Under the pieces are notes generated by a model that worked only from the letters and a program-made list of their open reading frames with translations, had not been told where the DNA came from and made no database searches. DNA of 64,000 bases from an uncultured Verrucomicrobiota bacterium (GTDB lineage Bacteria > Verrucomicrobiota > Verrucomicrobiia > Chthoniobacterales > JACTMZ01): the NCBI GenBank assembly GCA_903953565.1, contig CAJBKE010000052.1, positions 62,001 through 126,000 on the forward strand. The letters are read 5' to 3'. Made by a program: the position numbers and the translations under genes. This document shows positions 5,120-58,415 of this stretch, one piece after another. Within the stretch, counting starts at the first letter, position 1; every line of letters begins with the position of its first letter.

Positions 5120-5317
5120 TCACGGACTCTGCGATTGAGGACGCAATAAAACCACTAGTCCGGCCAAGCACGCCAAGCCTACCAGCCCATAGACTGCGCA
5201 CCAGGTAAGTTGCGTGGAAGTGTCGAGGGGTTCGAAGGTGGCCATGAATCCGAACACGCAAAACGACAAAAGCGCGAGCAGCACCAATACACGCATGATT
5301 CGTCTGACTTTGTTCAT
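5120..5317 (-). CDS. Small two-helix membrane protein (cassette ORF)
   Basis: 65 residues from ATG at 5317 (MNKVRRIMRVL). Two hydrophobic segments (about residues 8-25 and 37-55) separated by a short polar loop, with a positively charged N-terminus. No family recognised. An in-frame upstream ATG at 5353 would add 12 residues but lies within the flank of the attC-like site, so the inner start is preferred. The gene sits between an attC-like element and a second GCCGAAC end, as an integron cassette gene would. Confidence 0.5.
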   Translation of the reverse strand: MNKVRRIMRVLVLLALLSFCVFGFMATFEPLDTSTQLTWCAVYGLVGLACLAGLVVLLRPQSQSP

Positions 5318-47979: not shown

Positions 47980-48768
47980 TCAGGAACCGGAACGGAAAAA
48001 GCCGCGTTGCTTTTCCGAGATGGGCAGCCCGAGTTTTTCCATGACGAGGAGCATGTCCTCCCAGACTTTGCGTTTCTCGGAGAGGGAGTCGTTGCGCAGG
48101 AGATAGGACGGGTGGTAGGTGGGGAGAAGCGGGATGTTTTCGAAGCTGAACCAGCGACCGCGCATGGAGGACATGGATTCGTCGGCGCCGGTCAGTCCGG
48201 TCATGGCGGTTTTGCCCAGGGCGACGAGAATGCGTGGTTGGATGATGGCGATTTGCTCGCGGAGGTAGGGGAGGCAGCGCTGCATCTCAAGGGCTTCGGG
48301 CGGGCGGTTGCCGGTGGAGCCCTTGGGCATGTCGGGGCGGCAATTGAGGACGTTGGCGATGTAGACATCGTCGCGGGTCAGGCCCATGGCGGTGATGATC
48401 TTGGTGAGGAGTTCCCCGGCGCGGCCGACAAAGGGTTCGCCCTGCTTGTCCTCGTCGAAGCCCGGAGCCTCACCGACGAACATGAGGTCGGCGTTCGGGT
48501 TTCCGATGCCGAAGACAGTTTGCGTGCGGAATGCGGCCAAGTGTTCGCATTTGCGGCAGGCGCGAACGGCCTCGTTCAGCGCGAGAAGACGCGCTGAACT
48601 AGGCATTTCAGATTTCAAATTTGAAATTTGAGACAGTCCCGCGTTAGGTGCTTGGCTCAGGCGCGCAAGGGATTCGCGGGTTACGCCCGTCCGCGTGCGA
48701 CCAAGAAGGGCGCGGCGTGTGCGCAGGGATTGCTCGAGGAGTGCGGTGGCTGCTTGGAGAGATGACAT
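47980..48768 (-). CDS. Uracil-DNA glycosylase, Fe-S family 4 type, with repeat-encoded insertion
   Basis: 262 residues. Removes uracil from DNA. FVGEAPGFDEDKQGEPFVGRAG and LLPTYHPSYLL are the family 4/5 active-site motifs; Cys at CRKCEH, LNCRP and QRCLPY fit the [4Fe-4S] cluster. The N-terminal ~60 residues are non-conserved and contain QISNLKSEM, encoded by a dispersed palindromic repeat (48605-48632). Confidence 0.93.
   Translation of the reverse strand: MSSLQAATALLEQSLRTRRALLGRTRTGVTRESLARLSQAPNAGLSQISNLKSEMPSSARLLALNEAVRACRKCEHLAAFRTQTVFGIGNPNADLMFVGEAPGFDEDKQGEPFVGRAGELLTKIITAMGLTRDDVYIANVLNCRPDMPKGSTGNRPPEALEMQRCLPYLREQIAIIQPRILVALGKTAMTGLTGADESMSSMRGRWFSFENIPLLPTYHPSYLLRNDSLSEKRKVWEDMLLVMEKLGLPISEKQRGFFRSGS
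48605..48632. repeat. ATTTCAGATTTCAAATTTG repeat inside the UDG gene
   Basis: Near-palindromic AT-rich element read in frame as ISNLKSE. It stands out from the GC-rich gene around it. Related copies at 48781-48794, 48990-49023 and 49309-49341. Confidence 0.8.
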
Positions 48769-48777
48769 GGTTGGGAA

Positions 48778-48797
48778 AATTTCAGATTTCAGATAGG
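48778..48797. repeat. Partial ATTTCAGATTTCAGAT repeat
   Basis: In the short gap between the S23-type gene end and the UDG start; half of the palindromic element. Confidence 0.65.
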
Positions 48798-49298
48798 GCG
48801 CTTGGGCTGCTTTTTGGCCGGGTGTCCATCGGGCAAAGCGGCGTTGAGTCTCTCGATAAAGGCGTCAGCCTTTTTCTTCTGCTCGTGGCGGTTGCGCTCG
48901 GCGTTGTTGAGGTGGCGTTGGCCTTTGATGGGGGAGTTTTGCAACGAATCGGCCCAAGCGCGAAGCTGGCGCGAGCAGGACTCGGCCTGGGATTTCAGAT
49001 TAGAAATTTGAGATTTGAAATCTTCGAGCGCAGGGCGCCTTTCGAAGTAATTGAGCATCGATCGGACTTCTCCGGCCGAGCCGCGGGCGATGTAGAGGAA
49101 GTTGAGGAGTTCGTTCGTCGTCCCGCGCTCGAAGCCTTCAGCGATGTTGTTGGAGACGGAGAGGGAAGCGCGGTCGAGTTGGTCGCGTTTGGACCAGGTG
49201 ATGCGGTCTTTGGCCGCCATGATGAAGTCTTCGCAGCCTTCGGCGAGAGCTATGGCGTCATTCCAGACAGGGAGATCTTCGAAACGCTGGTAGGTCAT
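48789..49298 (-). CDS. Four-helix-bundle S23/IVS-type protein with repeat-encoded insertion
   Basis: 169 residues. The first ~95 match the 'four helix bundle protein' family first met in 23S rRNA intervening sequences: FEDLPVWNDAIALAEG, LDRASLSVSNNIAEGFERGTTNELLNFLYIARGSAGEVRSML. Then comes DFKSQISNLKSQ, encoded by the dispersed repeat at 48990-49023, followed by a charged C-terminal tail (about 105-169, KKKAD) not typical for the family. Function unknown. It is flanked on both sides and interrupted by copies of the same repeat. Confidence 0.85.
   Translation of the reverse strand: MTYQRFEDLPVWNDAIALAEGCEDFIMAAKDRITWSKRDQLDRASLSVSNNIAEGFERGTTNELLNFLYIARGSAGEVRSMLNYFERRPALEDFKSQISNLKSQAESCSRQLRAWADSLQNSPIKGQRHLNNAERNRHEQKKKADAFIERLNAALPDGHPAKKQPKRPI
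48990..49023. repeat. ATTTCAGAT/AAATTTGAGATTTGAAAT repeat inside the S23-type gene
   Basis: In-frame copy of the palindromic AT-rich element, translated as FKSQISNLKSQ. Confidence 0.8.
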
Positions 49299-49308
49299 GT
49301 GTTGGGAA

Positions 49309-49341
49309 TTTCAGATTTCAAATTTGAAATCTGAGATTTGC
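49309..49341. repeat. ATTTCAGATTTCAAATTTG repeat upstream of the S23-type gene
   Basis: Best palindrome of the family: ATTTCAGATTTC-AAATTTGAAATCTGA. It lies between the CCA enzyme stop and the S23-type start, where it could also act as a weak hairpin. Confidence 0.8.
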
Positions 49342-49368
49342 CTAGGGGCTGTCTCGCTTTCGCTCGGC

Positions 49369-50685
49369 TCATAGGGGGTGGTTTGCTTTGATCCACGCGA
49401 TGGCTCCTTCGGTCGTGGTAAGCGTGCCTTCGAGTTGTGCGGTTTGCACGGCTTCCAGGATTGGGCCGAAGTGGGGGCCGGGTTTCCAGCCGAGGGCCAT
49501 GAGGTCGTGGCCGGTGACGAGCGGAGGCGGGATGAGCGGTTCGTTGGCGAATTCTTCGGCTTTGGTTTTGAGAAAATCGTAGTTGTCGAGGGCGCCGTGG
49601 CTGCTTTGGCAGTCGACGCGGTGGAGTTCGAGTTCTTCGTCGAAGGCATCGCGGGCCATGAAGCGCTTCAATTTGGCGGTGCGCATGTTTTGCACGTCCT
49701 TGAAGACCATGTGCTGGCGGACGGCTTCGGTCACGCGGTCGATGTCCTGGCGGGAAAAGCGGAGTCGCTCCATGAGTTTTTCCGTCATGGATGCACCGAC
49801 GCGGTCGTGTCCGCTGAAACGGATGCGGTCTTCATCGGCGTGGTAGCGGAAGGTCGGCGGCTTGCCGATGTCGTGGAAGAGGACAGCCAAGGCGAGTGTG
49901 ACGGGCGCTTCGGGCGGGAGAAGTTCGAGCATGGCGCGGGTGTGGACGAAGACATCGCCCTCCGGATGGAACTGCGCCGGTTGTTCGCAGCCCTTGAGTT
50001 TTTCGATCTCGGGGAGGATTTCTTTGAGGAGTCCGCTTTGATCCAGAAGATCGAAACCGCGGACGCGAGTGGGATGGGCAAGAATTTTGACCAACTCCTC
50101 ACGAATGCGTTCGGCGCTGACCGCATGAATGTCGGCGGCGTGCGCTTTGATCGCATCCCACGTGGCCGGGTCGATCTGGTAGCCGAAACGCGCGGCGAAG
50201 CGCACGGCGCGAAGGAGGCGGAGCTTGTCCTCGCGAAAACGCGCGACCGGATCACCGATAGCCCGCAGGGTTTGCGATGCGAGATCTTCGCGGCCGCCGA
50301 CGAAATCGATGAATTTGTCCGCCACCGGATCGTGGAACATTCCGTTGATGGTGAAGTCGCGGCGGGCGGCGTCCTCCTCGGGGGTGGAGAACGTGACCAT
50401 CTCCGGGCGCCGTCCGTCGATGTATTCATGGTCGGAGCGGAAGGTGGCCACCTCGAAGGCGCGGCCGTGTTCCATGACAAGAATGACACCGAAGTGCGCG
50501 CCGACGGCTTGGGTATGCGGGAAAAGTTTCTGCACTTCGGCGGGTTTTGCCGAGGTGGCAATGTCATAGTCGTGCGGGTCGAGTCCGAGCAGTTCGTCGC
50601 GCACGCAGCCGCCGGCGAAGTAGGCGGTGTGGCCGGCCTCTTGCATGCGGCGGGCGATGTCGGTGGCGGCGGATTTCGGGTCCAT
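49369..50685 (-). CDS. cca: CCA tRNA nucleotidyltransferase
   Basis: 438 residues. Adds or repairs the CCA end of tRNAs, needed here since tRNA-Tyr lacks an encoded CCA. N-terminal nucleotidyltransferase: YFAGGCVRDELLGLDPHDYDIATSA (catalytic DxD), RRDFTINGMFHDP; then RxxRFAARFGYQIDP head/neck, and an HD domain (LALAVLFHDIGKP). The C-terminus includes an extra helical portion. It resembles the PcnB/CCA class II family; the CCA role is the better guess. Confidence 0.92.
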   Translation of the reverse strand: MDPKSAATDIARRMQEAGHTAYFAGGCVRDELLGLDPHDYDIATSAKPAEVQKLFPHTQAVGAHFGVILVMEHGRAFEVATFRSDHEYIDGRRPEMVTFSTPEEDAARRDFTINGMFHDPVADKFIDFVGGREDLASQTLRAIGDPVARFREDKLRLLRAVRFAARFGYQIDPATWDAIKAHAADIHAVSAERIREELVKILAHPTRVRGFDLLDQSGLLKEILPEIEKLKGCEQPAQFHPEGDVFVHTRAMLELLPPEAPVTLALAVLFHDIGKPPTFRYHADEDRIRFSGHDRVGASMTEKLMERLRFSRQDIDRVTEAVRQHMVFKDVQNMRTAKLKRFMARDAFDEELELHRVDCQSSHGALDNYDFLKTKAEEFANEPLIPPPLVTGHDLMALGWKPGPHFGPILEAVQTAQLEGTLTTTEGAIAWIKANHPL

Positions 50686-53693: not shown

Positions 53694-54494
53694 TCATGCT
53701 TGGGAGATCAATTGCCTGAGTCGTTTGCTCTCCAGATTGCTGAGTGTGATCGGCGCCTTCGTTCCCTCAAGGTAGAGGTCCCAGCTGAGTAGGTTTTTCC
53801 TCTCCATCTTGGCCACGGATTTTCTGTTCACGAGCAGACTGCGGCTCACTTTGGTAAAGAGTTCGGCGGGCAACTGGCTCTCCCAGAGCGAGAGGGGCTG
53901 TTTCATCATGAGGATCTTCTCTTCACTCAGGAAGATCCTGGTGTAGTCGCCCTGCGACTCGATGGCGGCAATCTCCCTTGCCTTCACCATCATGGAGAGT
54001 GATCTCTCCCGCAGCAGGACCAGATCCTCGGGTTCAAGACGTTTTGCTGTTTCGGTGGGGGGAGGAGAGATGGTTTCGCTTGCGGCTCCTTTTGCCGGGC
54101 CGAGCTGTTTGCTCAGACGCAGGATCGTCTTGGCGAGCCGTTCGGCACTGACTGGCTTGGTCAGGTAGTCGAGGGCATTGGCCTCGAAGGCCCTGATCGC
54201 ATACTCGTCAAAGGCGGTGACAAAGACGACGGCCGGCTGGGGTTCGACCGTTTCGAGTTTCGGGAGGAGGGCGAAGCCGTTCTCTTTCGGCATTTGGATA
54301 TCGAGGAAAATCACATCGGGTCTCTCCGCGGAGACTAAATCGAAAGCAGAGGAAACGTCTTCCGCCTCGCCCACGATCTCTATCTCGGGATGAGCCTTGA
54401 GGCGCTTGGCCAGATGGATTCGCGAGGGTGACTCGTCATCCACCAGAATAGCGCGCAGGCGTGGAGGTTTGGGCTGTTCGGAGTTTCTGCTCAT
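53694..54494 (-). CDS. LytTR-family response regulator
   Basis: 266 residues. Receiver domain (about 12-130): ILVDDESPSR, phosphoacceptor Asp in VIFLDIQMPKENG, Thr and Lys (VTAFDEYAI, YLTKPVS). A linker with PPPTETAKRLE leads to the LytTR DNA-binding domain (about 165-265: REIAAIESQGDYTRIFLSEEKILM, FTKVSRSLLVNRK). Such regulators bind direct repeats at 21-22 bp pitch. Coupled by ATGA to the kinase gene upstream. Confidence 0.95.
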   Translation of the reverse strand: MSRNSEQPKPPRLRAILVDDESPSRIHLAKRLKAHPEIEIVGEAEDVSSAFDLVSAERPDVIFLDIQMPKENGFALLPKLETVEPQPAVVFVTAFDEYAIRAFEANALDYLTKPVSAERLAKTILRLSKQLGPAKGAASETISPPPTETAKRLEPEDLVLLRERSLSMMVKAREIAAIESQGDYTRIFLSEEKILMMKQPLSLWESQLPAELFTKVSRSLLVNRKSVAKMERKNLLSWDLYLEGTKAPITLSNLESKRLRQLISQA

Positions 54495-55573
54495 GGCTTC
54501 GTGATGGGGAGGGTCACGATCGACTGTACCCGTTGTGGCGAGTGCTCGTGGGTCAGGCTAGCGCGGTCACCATAGAGCAACTGGAGACGTCGTCGGAGGT
54601 TGGTGATCCCGATGCCCATCCCTGACGATGCCGAGGGCTCCACCCACGATCCCGTATTCTCGACCGTGAGATGGAGGCGATCCCCGGTGAGCTGCGCTTC
54701 GATGCGGATCGAGAGAGGCATGGGGCTTGTCTGCTGGCCATACTTGATCGCATTTTCGAGGAGGGGTTGGACCAGTTGCCTTGGCACCACGAACACACGC
54801 GCCTCCTCGTCCGCATCGATCCGGAACCGCAGCTTCTCCTCGAAGCGGATTTTCTCCACGTGGAGATAGTTCTCCATGGCTTCCAGCTCCTCACCGAGAG
54901 GTGAGTAGTCGTCATTCCTCTTGCGCAGGGAGAAGCGAAGGTAGTCGGCGAGGGACTGGGTCAGCTCCTCCACTTTCTCCTTGTTGTCACTCACTGCCAT
55001 GACGGCGGAGAGTGCATTGAAGAGGAAGTGCGGCTGCATTTGGTATCTTAGCAGTGCAAGTTCGCTTTTCTGCTGGCGACCGCTCAGCTCAAGAGAGTCA
55101 AAAAAGAGCGATCCCGAAAAATAGAATCCGACCCAAAGGGCAAAAAAGAAGAGATCCAGATAGAAGCCGAGGACCATCACGCTGGTTCCGATCGAAAGAT
55201 TCCCGGTGAGTGACCTGAAGTGCTCTTGCAGGAACGGAATTTGCGTGAGTAGCAGAATTTCTACTGCGATGTAAGCGAGTGAAAGACCGAGAAGCACCGC
55301 GGTCATTTTGAGAGGATGCCACTTCCTCGAATGAATCCGGATCAGCAGGGGGCGAAGAGACGTTGTGATGAGGAACCCGTAAGCTGACTTGAGGAGGATC
55401 AATTCAAAGAGCAACGATTCTGCTCCGCGGAGAATGATGCCGGTAGCCATCAGCACCCACACCAAGATTCCCTGGAAGAGCGTGTAAGCCACCCAGAAGC
55501 TGATCTGTAGCTTCCAAAAGTAGGGAGACTTTTTGCTTTCTGTGAAATCCCCGAGGTGACGGTTGATGATCAT
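54491..55573 (-). CDS. LytS/YpdA-type sensor histidine kinase
   Basis: 360 residues. Four hydrophobic segments make up the N-terminal half (about 20-45, 50-70, 85-110, 125-150). Then the His_kinase family signature LRYQMQPHFLFNALSAVMAV with the phosphoacceptor His, and an HATPase domain: LVQPLLENAIKYG and GMGIGITNLRRRLQLLYG. Partner of the LytTR regulator. Transcribed away from the PEP-CTERM gene, sharing the intergenic region with it. Confidence 0.95.
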   Translation of the reverse strand: MIINRHLGDFTESKKSPYFWKLQISFWVAYTLFQGILVWVLMATGIILRGAESLLFELILLKSAYGFLITTSLRPLLIRIHSRKWHPLKMTAVLLGLSLAYIAVEILLLTQIPFLQEHFRSLTGNLSIGTSVMVLGFYLDLFFFALWVGFYFSGSLFFDSLELSGRQQKSELALLRYQMQPHFLFNALSAVMAVSDNKEKVEELTQSLADYLRFSLRKRNDDYSPLGEELEAMENYLHVEKIRFEEKLRFRIDADEEARVFVVPRQLVQPLLENAIKYGQQTSPMPLSIRIEAQLTGDRLHLTVENTGSWVEPSASSGMGIGITNLRRRLQLLYGDRASLTHEHSPQRVQSIVTLPITKP

Positions 55574-55669
55574 TGGGTTGGGGTTGCAATCTCTGGCGCG
55601 CCCACGCGCAGCTAATCAATCGAATTGTCGCGCGACCCACTAGGAGAAAATCCTGAGCTGATCCCGTAA

Positions 55670-55678
55670 GGGGGGGGG
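55670..55678. repeat. G9 homopolymer between the kinase and the PEP-CTERM gene
   Basis: Nine G in a row in the shared regulatory region, about 100 bases before the direct repeats. Confidence 0.85.
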
Positions 55679-55775
55679 AGATCGGATGTGAAGTTCTGCG
55701 CGCAAAAACGCAGCGGTCCGCTGAACCGCAGTTCCGCAACCGCGGGACAACCAGCAGCCCTTGCCGCGGGATACA

Positions 55776-55807
55776 CGATTCGTCGACGGTTTCATGCGAT
55801 TCGTCGA
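55776..55807 (+). promoter_or_regulatory. Candidate LytTR operator: 11-bp direct repeat at 21-bp pitch
   Basis: CGATTCGTCGA occurs at 55776-55786 and 55797-55807 with 10 bases between, so both copies face the same side of the helix. LytTR regulators are known to bind ~9-bp direct repeats with about 21-bp pitch. It lies 60-90 bases before the PEP-CTERM start and on the promoter side of the kinase operon. TTGATA at 55814-55819 could be a -35 box. Inference from spacing and neighbourhood. Confidence 0.55.
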
Positions 55808-55867
55808 GTTTCGGTTGATAAATCACCCTTTCACCCTTTCTCTGCAAAATTCTCTCGGACCAAACCA

Positions 55868-56833
55868 ATGAAACCAATGAAAGCAATGACGGCGGTGGCG
55901 GCTCTCGGGCTGGCACTGGGAATGGTGGGGGCCGGAACCGCTGAGGCCGACACGTTCGGCACGAGTGGCAATGAGTTCAATATCGACTTCGTGGATATCG
56001 GCAACGCGGGCAATGCGGCCGATACGACCGGCTACGGAGCCGTGCCCTACGAATACCGCGTGGGCACTTACGAGGTCACCCAGGACGCCGTCACCAAGGC
56101 GATGGCTAGCGGGTTGGCCGACGTGACGGCTGGGGAATGGACGGGCAACCAGCCGGTGGCGCCTTTTTCGTGGTATGAGGCGGCGGCTTTTGTCAACTGG
56201 CTGAACACGAGCTCGGGGAAGACGGCGGCCTATGATCTCACCTTCAGCAGCGGTAGTTGGAGCATGGCTCTGTGGAGCAGCGAGCAGGCCTGGACGGCGG
56301 GAGGAACCAATCTTTACCGGAACAAGAACGCCTTTTATTTTCTGCCCAGCGAGAACGAGTGGTATAAGGCGGCGTATTACAACGCGGCCGGGACGAACTA
56401 TTTTCTCTTCCCGACGACAAGCAACATCGACCCGATCGCCGTGGCCAGCGGGACCAACGCAGGCACGGCGGTTTACAATTTCGCCGGGCTTCAGCCAGCG
56501 GCTGTGACCGATGCGGGCGGCTTGAGCCCCGTTTCAACGATGGGCCAAGGCGGCAATGTGTCGGAGTGGATGGAGAGTGCCTTTGATGGCACAAACAGCT
56601 TGGCGTCCGAGGATCGCGCGGCCCGCGGTGGCAGCTACCAGTCCATCTACTACGCCGGCGTCATCACCAACCCCTTGATCTCCTCGGCCCGGGGCATCGG
56701 CGACCCGTCGAACGAGATCAGGAACCTCGGCTTTCGCGTCGCGAGTGTCCCTGAACCCTCGACCTATGCCCTCATCGCCCTCGCTGGCGCGGTGCTTGTC
56801 GCCCGCGTCGTGGTTCGGCGTCGTCGGAGTTAG
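55868..56833 (+). CDS. PEP-CTERM protein with formylglycine-generating-enzyme-like fold
   Basis: 321 residues from ATG at 55868; signal peptide (AALGLALGMVGAGTAEA). The body resembles the SUMF1/FGE-sulfatase fold: YRVGTYEVTQDAV, PVAPFSWYEAAAFVNWLN, FYFLPSENEWYKAAYYN, QGGNVSEWMES, and RAARGGSYQS ... NLGFRVA. There is no Cys in the protein, so the formylglycine chemistry is not possible; a binding or structural role is likelier. The C-terminus is a PEP-CTERM sorting signal (VPEPSTYAL, a hydrophobic helix, RRRRS), meaning exosortase processing and surface delivery. No exosortase is in the window. Start chosen for its signal peptide; the frame upstream to 55688 covers the regulatory DNA. Confidence 0.88.
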   Translation: MKPMKAMTAVAALGLALGMVGAGTAEADTFGTSGNEFNIDFVDIGNAGNAADTTGYGAVPYEYRVGTYEVTQDAVTKAMASGLADVTAGEWTGNQPVAPFSWYEAAAFVNWLNTSSGKTAAYDLTFSSGSWSMALWSSEQAWTAGGTNLYRNKNAFYFLPSENEWYKAAYYNAAGTNYFLFPTTSNIDPIAVASGTNAGTAVYNFAGLQPAAVTDAGGLSPVSTMGQGGNVSEWMESAFDGTNSLASEDRAARGGSYQSIYYAGVITNPLISSARGIGDPSNEIRNLGFRVASVPEPSTYALIALAGAVLVARVVVRRRRS

Positions 56834-57227
56834 AGCAAAAGCCTCTCGTTTGCCGGAGTCACGCGGCGCGGTTGCCTGGCGTCCCAAGCGGACAAACTTC
56901 TCGAGCCCATTCGGAAGCAGAGCTTTGGTTGCCCTCCTTCCGGCCTTGGTCGCCACGTCACAGCAGGCCGATGCCTAGGCTCTCCTTGTCGGTTCCAATA
57001 ATTCCGCGCTGGTGACGGGAGCCGGTTCGACGTGGAGTAACAGCACCCATCGATTTCCGCGCACGCGATGGTTTTTCGACATCGTGATCGGACTGGCCTT
57101 GGCGTTTGGGGCTTTGGCCATCGTCATCGCATCGCGCTGACTAGTCGGGAGGCTTCGACCTGTGTCGCTGCGCACGCCTGCTCCCACCGTTCTTGGCTTT
57201 GACCGCGCGGCTTCATAACTTGCATGT
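56834..57227. other. 394-base gap with one doubtful small ORF
   Basis: After the PEP-CTERM stop no protein family is recognisable. A GTG-started 42-codon ORF with a C-terminal membrane helix is the only candidate (57012-57140). No clear terminator was found for the PEP-CTERM gene. Confidence 0.6.
57012..57140 (+). CDS. Possible 42-residue single-helix membrane protein
   Basis: GTG at 57012, reading MTGAGSTWSNSTHRFPRTRW and then a strongly hydrophobic helix (FFDIVIGLALAFGALAIVIA) with SR at the end. The positive-then-hydrophobic order would place the C-terminus outside. Without a good ribosome site or homolog it remains doubtful. Confidence 0.35.
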   Translation: MTGAGSTWSNSTHRFPRTRWFFDIVIGLALAFGALAIVIASR

Positions 57228-58415
57228 GTGTCCAAGCCGCCTGATGACCGACCTGCGCCGATGGCGTGTCCGTTCACCGGAAAGATCTGGCGCCACGATG
57301 GCAGCGCGCTGATGCCTGCTGCGGGCGGCGCAGCCGCGGATCGTGGGTCGGCCGCGGAGGAATTTCTACGGCAGTTCGCGAGGGAGAACGGCGGCCATGT
57401 TTCGGCGACGAGGATCGAGGCTGTTCGCGCCGAGATCTCCGCGCACGGGTGGTATCGGCAAACGCCGGAGGAACTTGAGTTTGCCTGCCGCCTGGCGTGG
57501 AGGAACAACCGCCGCTGCATCGGCCGTCGCTATTGGCAAACGCTCGAGGTGGCCGATGCGCGCGAGGCCGTGACCGCGGGCGATATTTTCGAGGCCTGCG
57601 TGGCGCATCTGCGGCGCTCGACCAATGGCGGAAAAATCCAGCCGCTGATCACGGTGTTCGCCGAGGCGGACGCCGAGGGGCGCGGCCCAGTCATTCACAA
57701 TTACCAACTCATCCGCTATGCGGGCTATCGTCAGTCCGACGGCACCGTGCTGGGTGACCCGGCGGAGGTGCTCTTCACCGAGCGGGTGATGGCGGCGGGA
57801 TGGAAGCCGCCAGCGCAATGTAGTGCGTTCGACGTTCTGCCTCTGGTGATTGAAACGCCGGAGGAGGGGGAAAGGCTTTTTATCATTCCGCAAGACGCGG
57901 TTTTGGAAGTGCCGATCATCCATCCGACCTTCGCGTGGTTCGAAGAACTAGGGCTCAAGTGGCATGCCTTGCCGGCGGTCTCCAATATGGTCCTTGATGC
58001 CGGTGGCGTGCGCTACACGGCGGCGCCCTTCAGCGGCTACTACATGGAGACGGAAATCGCGGCGCGGAACTTCGGCGACGCGGAGCGCTACAACCTGTTG
58101 CCGGTGGTGGCGGATCGCATGGATCCGGCGATGCGTTCACGCGATCCGTTCTGGCGCGACCGGGCGCTGGTCGAACTGTGTGCGGCGGTGCTTTATTCTT
58201 TCCGGCAAGCCGGAGTGACGATGGTGGATCATCATGCCGCCTCGCGTCAGTTCATGGAACATCTGGCGGAGGAAAAAGCGCAGGGCCGCATTGTGCCCGG
58301 CGATTGGTCGTGGTTGGTGCCGCCCGTGTCCGGATCAGCATCGCCGGTCTTCCACCGCTCGTATGATCCGCGACCGCGACTGCCGGATTTCGTGCCGAGG
58401 CAAAAAAAACGCTGA
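57228..58415 (+). CDS. nos: Nitric oxide synthase oxygenase domain protein
   Basis: 395 residues, the oxygenase domain only, as in bacterial NOS. It makes nitric oxide and citrulline from arginine with heme and a pterin or folate. The heme-thiolate Cys is in LAWRNNRRCIGR; the substrate region reads ALPAVSNMVLDAGGVRY and TAAPFSGYYMETEIAARNFGD, with the arginine-binding Glu in METE; the pterin-side region VTMVDHHAASRQFM is also typical. Start is GTG at 57228. About 30 residues longer N-terminally than Bacillus NOS. No reductase domain or adjacent flavodoxin gene; electrons must come from elsewhere. The last codons overlap the opposite terminator's T-run. Confidence 0.96.
   Translation: MSKPPDDRPAPMACPFTGKIWRHDGSALMPAAGGAAADRGSAAEEFLRQFARENGGHVSATRIEAVRAEISAHGWYRQTPEELEFACRLAWRNNRRCIGRRYWQTLEVADAREAVTAGDIFEACVAHLRRSTNGGKIQPLITVFAEADAEGRGPVIHNYQLIRYAGYRQSDGTVLGDPAEVLFTERVMAAGWKPPAQCSAFDVLPLVIETPEEGERLFIIPQDAVLEVPIIHPTFAWFEELGLKWHALPAVSNMVLDAGGVRYTAAPFSGYYMETEIAARNFGDAERYNLLPVVADRMDPAMRSRDPFWRDRALVELCAAVLYSFRQAGVTMVDHHAASRQFMEHLAEEKAQGRIVPGDWSWLVPPVSGSASPVFHRSYDPRPRLPDFVPRQKKR

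Follow-up and report, generated by a model that had tools for sequence, protein, structure and literature searches.

A predicted LytTR operator between a two-component system and a PEP-CTERM gene in Verrucomicrobiota

The window, a 64,000-nucleotide stretch of DNA from an uncultured Verrucomicrobiota bacterium, contains a paired 11-base repeat that very probably serves as a genuine switch site on the DNA, a predicted LytTR operator. The repeat is located in an intergenic gap, with the genes of a LytS-type kinase and a LytTR regulator on one side and a PEP-CTERM gene on the other. In all likelihood it is the operator of this adjacent two-component system, whose regulator would activate the divergent PEP-CTERM gene. 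LytTR direct-repeat operators are a known kind of site. What is new within the literature searched, in which no paper with both 'PEP-CTERM' and 'LytTR' was found, is the class of sequence, its occurrence in this phylum and its connection with PEP-CTERM and other exported cargo.

In the proposed mechanism, the membrane kinase would relay a signal to the LytTR response regulator, a dimer of which would bind the two same-facing half-sites of 9-11 bp, two helical turns apart. The bound regulator, positioned just upstream of the -35 region, would then activate transcription of the divergent PEP-CTERM gene. We infer the binding of the repeat by the regulator, the need for phosphorylation and the activating effect. 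The link between repeat and regulator is suggested by their adjacency and co-conservation, the LytTR residues having been compared by alignment.

The repeat and its surroundings

The two copies of CGATTCGTCGA lie on the same strand with a start-to-start distance, or pitch, of 21 bp (Table 1). The window contains no other exact direct repeat of 11 bases at this pitch. When the window was resampled with an order-1 Markov model, 0-0.13 exact 11-mer repeats per pitch per window were obtained for pitches 15-30, and none at pitch 21 in 30 resamplings. The 2.86-Mb genome was scanned by pattern and by profile, and the exact pair occurs once in the pattern scan. Published LytTR sites consist of repeats 9-11 nt long, separated by 11-13 nt (PMC4847170); the usual separation is 12 bp, and the sites precede the -35 by about 10 bp (PMC6193735). 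The exact 11-mer pair falls within this repeat length, and the 12 nt between its 9-bp cores within this distance. The earlier note had proposed an exact 11-bp repeat at 21-bp pitch in the known LytTR geometry; the repeat is confirmed, and its geometry and orientation fit the published sites, as does its distance to a -35-like TTG, a candidate element behind which no good -10 was found. Neither an Rfam family nor an unusual DNA fold was found near the operator.

Table 1. Features of the divergent gap and the neighbouring genes (window coordinates)
Feature	Position	Strand	Details
Response regulator, predicted repeat binder	53694..54494	-	receiver (Response_reg) and LytTR DNA-binding domain matches
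LytS/AlgZ-like sensor histidine kinase	54491..55573	-	hydrophobic N-terminal region; PF06580 and HATPase_c
Conserved box, CTAGGAGAAAATCCTGA on + / GAGAAAATCC	55640..55656	-	83% pairwise identity; all nine orthologous loci
G9 tract	55670..55678	+	adjoins a window-only extra stretch of ~75 bp; not conserved
Terminator-like hairpin and T-run	55713..55729	-	within the window-only stretch; oriented toward the kinase gene
Predicted LytTR operator, distal half-site CGATTCGTCGA	55776..55786	+	exact repeat; 98% pairwise identity over 9 orthologous gaps
Spacer CGGTTTCATG, 10 bp	55787..55796	+	CGnTTT at 5' end conserved; 77% pairwise identity
Predicted LytTR operator, promoter-proximal half-site CGATTCGTCGA	55797..55807	+	exact repeat; 96% pairwise identity over 9 orthologous gaps
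-35-like TTGATA	55815..55820	+	9-bp gap after the 9-bp half-site core (ends 55805)
Predicted target gene, 321 aa	55868..56833	+	N-terminal signal-like stretch, FGE-sulfatase-like domain, PEP-CTERM
Nitric oxide synthase oxygenase domain	57228..58415	+	complete, bacterial; PF02898, 462 bits; directly 3' of the PEP-CTERM gene

The divergent LytTR/LytS pair beside a PEP-CTERM gene, also part of the earlier description, is borne out by domain matches on opposite strands. The receiver domain of the regulator scores 85.8 bits, and the PEP-CTERM match of the target product 23.6 bits against a cut-off of 20.7. The genome contains three LytTR proteins, four exosortase-family genes and 53 PEP-CTERM matches at E <= 1, 37 of which are above the cut-off. 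The tail above the cut-off and the exosortases in the genome place the target in the PEP-CTERM/exosortase system.

Compared with its orthologues, the gap of the window has some 70-80 extra bp. No G-run was found at the aligned place in any of the eight orthologous gaps; no tuning role is therefore indicated for the G9 tract, and the suggestion that it could tune the circuit is unsupported. The conserved box, some 70 bp ahead of the kinase start, may belong to the promoter or leader of the kinase gene. Elsewhere in the window, at 48597-49649, several open reading frames on both strands share the terminal peptide ISDFKFEI, which suggests a dispersed DNA repeat.

Conservation and recurrence of the operator

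A search of relatives gave orthologous kinases in G016 (76%) and G050 (69%), and both of these loci have the same repeat and pitch. A scan of the named genomes gave eight orthologous loci, all from Verrucomicrobia MAGs, and one unrelated match; they include MAGs from Lac Pavin and MAGs labelled 'uncultured Spartobacteria', and the species labels of some are doubtful. The kinases of these eight loci are 68-75% identical to that of the window, which brings the orthologous loci of these lake bacteria to nine. By the earlier note's own criterion, its reading would fall if relatives sharing the gene order lacked the repeat; this comparison was run, and the operator is kept at pitch 21 in 8/8 further loci, or 9/9 counting the window. 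In the nine-sequence alignment no other 32-bp stretch of the gap is as well conserved as the operator, which has 91% pairwise identity vs a median of 64%. Downstream of it the orthologous sequences fall to about 50% identity, and the following genes differ. The repeat, its pitch and its conservation with the regulator pair are thus direct results of computation. The regulator-operator pair is the stable part, and the exported target differs between lineages.

A count of GATTCGTC-N{0,30}-GATTCGTC, a pattern with 31 possible spacings, covered 213 genomes of the order. Exactly pitch 21 was seen in 20 of the 42 pairs lying 0-30 bases apart. Pitch 36 accounts for six pairs, mostly one recurring sequence, and the remaining spacings for 1-2 each. 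Once eight coding or tandem cases are removed, pitch 21 is found in 12/34. The corresponding binomial values, 4e-19 and 4e-10, overstate the significance because the sites are partly orthologous; independent support comes from recurrence beside different regulators.

The linkage to a LytTR regulator gene extends beyond the 9/9 orthologous loci to five other LytTR lineages, in which the same geometry accompanies regulators 34-51% identical to that of the window. In G003 (34%, with a 7TMR-DISM kinase) the pair is flanked by two sites, and the gene that each site faces encodes a PEP-CTERM-like tail scoring just under the Pfam cut-off. The regulators of G049 and G054 (35-38%; MASE1 kinase in G049) are associated with an autotransporter-like target of >2000 aa. 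G097 (42%) has two sites, with a PEP-CTERM-like protein below the cut-off and a PA14/PATR protein as targets. The half-sites are degenerate in G199 (36%; GH18+CBM2 target) and read TTCGTCGC in G005 (51%; PEP-CTERM-like target). Operator sites in G001, G106, G117 and G200 are on short contigs with no visible regulator.

A profile of 23 sites, run against the same order, ranked the sites described above at the top and added few others. The TTCGTC pair is absent at most other LytTR/kinase loci of the order, so it represents one specificity class and not a general rule. A phylum-wide search beyond the order yielded one clear operator only, from the same class. A second, diverged candidate operator, TTCGTCGCGCTTTTCGGCCGTTTCGTC, faces a PEP-CTERM gene of the present genome (C17:15358-15385; L256 ~6359, minus strand); G005 has this variant beside its 51%-identical regulator, and G002 has it at two places. 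Such a site is present at one or two of the roughly 53 PEP-CTERM loci of the genome.

Several candidates were rejected. The extra matches of a relaxed, 3-mismatch search, mostly one recurring and apparently coding sequence (CGATTCGTCGAGCGGCGCGTCCATTTCGTCGA) or scattered, were dropped, together with C4:143888, the sole such match in this genome. Weak profile matches in G151 and G018 are inside long open reading frames. Tandem heptamer ATTCGTC arrays, which occur at many places in families f6 and f9 (e.g. G025:C101:12647-12730) and are unrelated to the operator, were set aside as coding or tandem repeats, as were three pitch-21 pairs (G012, G097:C66, G120). A weak operator-like pair with 3 mismatches is located 59 bp before an LPMO_10 gene in L175 (G106:C73), at 5282-5313.

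Polarity, competing explanations and known systems

The fixed orientation toward targets and the TTG spacing, like the recurrence beside other LytTR systems, are likewise results of computation. In 25 aligned sites the motif points at the target start wherever a target is identifiable (G106a is without a clear target, and that of G209b is uncertain), and the distance from the operator end to the ATG is mostly 41-45 or 59-63 bp. A TTG 7-9 bp after the operator recurs in many relatives. A convincing -10 hexamer or consensus sigma-70 promoter was not found in the window.

These regularities bear on the possibility that the repeat autoregulates the kinase/regulator operon and that the PEP-CTERM gene is a bystander. 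The two divergent units share the gap, in which the site lies 203 bp ahead of the kinase start, and operons of LytTR Regulatory Systems (LRS) autoregulate through such repeats (PMC6193735). However, direction and the 41-63 bp spacing track the target ATG, whereas the distance to the kinase varies. In G003a, G049, G054 and G206b, moreover, the site comes after the regulator gene and before the target, and so belongs to the target promoter, and in G106, G200, G201, G202, G203 and G210 sites precede targets with no adjacent regulator in the stretch read. Autoregulation is accordingly improbable. Repression of the target by the bound regulator is somewhat less so, albeit still unlikely: the sequence does not reveal the direction of control, and some LytTR proteins, such as PlnD, repress (PMC2714321), but a site just upstream of the -35-like TTG, and not over the start site, occupies the position of a LytTR activator.

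That the repeat is the site of another DNA-binding protein or a dispersed repeat element, with the LytTR adjacency coincidental, is very improbable. Heptamer arrays do exist in other families of the order, and some pitch-21 pairs do lie in coding sequence, as noted above; yet the arrays are without the GATTCGTC...CGnTTT...GATTCGTC form, this genome has a single exact pair, and the geometry is found beside six distinct LytTR/kinase lineages. Activation of the PEP-CTERM gene by the adjacent two-component system remains the preferred reading.

With its two direct 9-11 bp half-sites at 21-bp pitch, the predicted operator resembles the AgrA, YpdB, VirR, PlnC/D and HdrR/BrsR class, and like other LytTR direct-repeat operators it lies beside LytTR regulator genes and would be just upstream of the -35 of the regulated gene. 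It differs from them in its class, GATTCGTCGA, in the conserved CGnTTT of the spacer, in its occurrence in Verrucomicrobiota and in its targets, which are PEP-CTERM and other exported proteins. The LRS, too, have a LytTR domain and direct repeats ahead of the -35, but in them the partner of the regulator is a membrane inhibitor, and they autoregulate; here, in place of the inhibitor, a receiver-LytTR protein has a histidine kinase as partner. AlgZ/AlgR of Pseudomonas aeruginosa likewise combines a kinase with a LytTR regulator and has the half-site core TTCGTC (AlgR CCGTTCGTC; PMC4064291). The window sequence CGATTCGTC, however, matches the AlgR site at 7/9 bases and differs at 2/9, which does not make it an AlgR regulon site; the algD sites listed in that review are separate single sites with no 21-bp pair (PMC4064291), and the targets differ. 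A cis-regulatory site of PEP-CTERM genes is known from Proteobacteria, where the sigma-54 activator PrsR of the PrsK/PrsR system, which is NtrC-like, has sites in front of 99/167 PEP-CTERM genes (Haft 2006, PMC1569441). The present system similarly joins a two-component system to a common cis-site before PEP-CTERM genes, but its regulator consists of Response_reg and LytTR only, with no sigma-54 interaction domain, and its sites are at few of the PEP-CTERM loci.

Targets and meaning

The target genes are not conserved and include PEP-CTERM, autotransporter-like, TSP3-like, multicopper oxidase and GH18 genes. Among the orthologous systems, PEP-CTERM targets are found in the window and G110, 'PPAPYYTIYG' TSP3-like targets in G016, L187 and L192 (and, without visible regulator, in G106 and G117), and multicopper oxidase plus HMBD/HlyD-type adaptor genes in G050, G206 and G209. 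A small cysteine-motif protein is the target in G206, with sites also in G050, G201, G202, G203 and G210. Judged by their N-termini, the targets of the orthologous systems look exported. The view of the circuit as one controlling an exosortase-sorted protein therefore holds for this locus and some relatives and does not extend to the circuit in general, PEP-CTERM being one of several exported target kinds. Copper was considered as a general signal and rejected, as genus g25 is the only one in which the multicopper oxidase, the Cus-type adaptor and the small CPLCK/CSMCK protein are targets; the FGE-sulfatase-like protein of the window, with a cysteine count of 0, gives no support for such a signal.

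In Verrucomicrobiota, kinase, regulator and operator may act together as a fixed plug-in control cassette, with the surface- and secreted-protein genes behind it repeatedly exchanged, although we hold this tentatively and with the balance slightly against it. The exchanged genes would be, just as tentatively, those for PEP-CTERM, autotransporter-like and TSP3-like proteins, multicopper oxidase with Cus-type efflux, and GH18. If this were true, the same sensory input would have been rewired to new extracellular functions. A conserved operator set against a changing target makes the rewiring of two-component circuits directly studyable. The operator also provides a concrete, testable regulator-target link and a motif for mapping LytTR regulons in uncultured lake bacteria, in a phylum whose member Verrucomicrobium spinosum has 65 PEP-CTERM proteins, among the largest sets (PMC1569441).

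In G001, of the same genus, the operator is upstream of another FGE/PEP-CTERM protein, 29% identical to that of the window, whose gene has a longer or uncertain leader. Window positions ~56748-56894, comprising the last codons of the PEP-CTERM gene and about 70 bp of 3' flank, are nearly identical to two places of this congener (L103, G001:C165, 1-92 and 1483-1629; 91/91 and 139/147 identical) despite the low identity of the proteins. Recombination at PEP-CTERM gene ends is a possible explanation.
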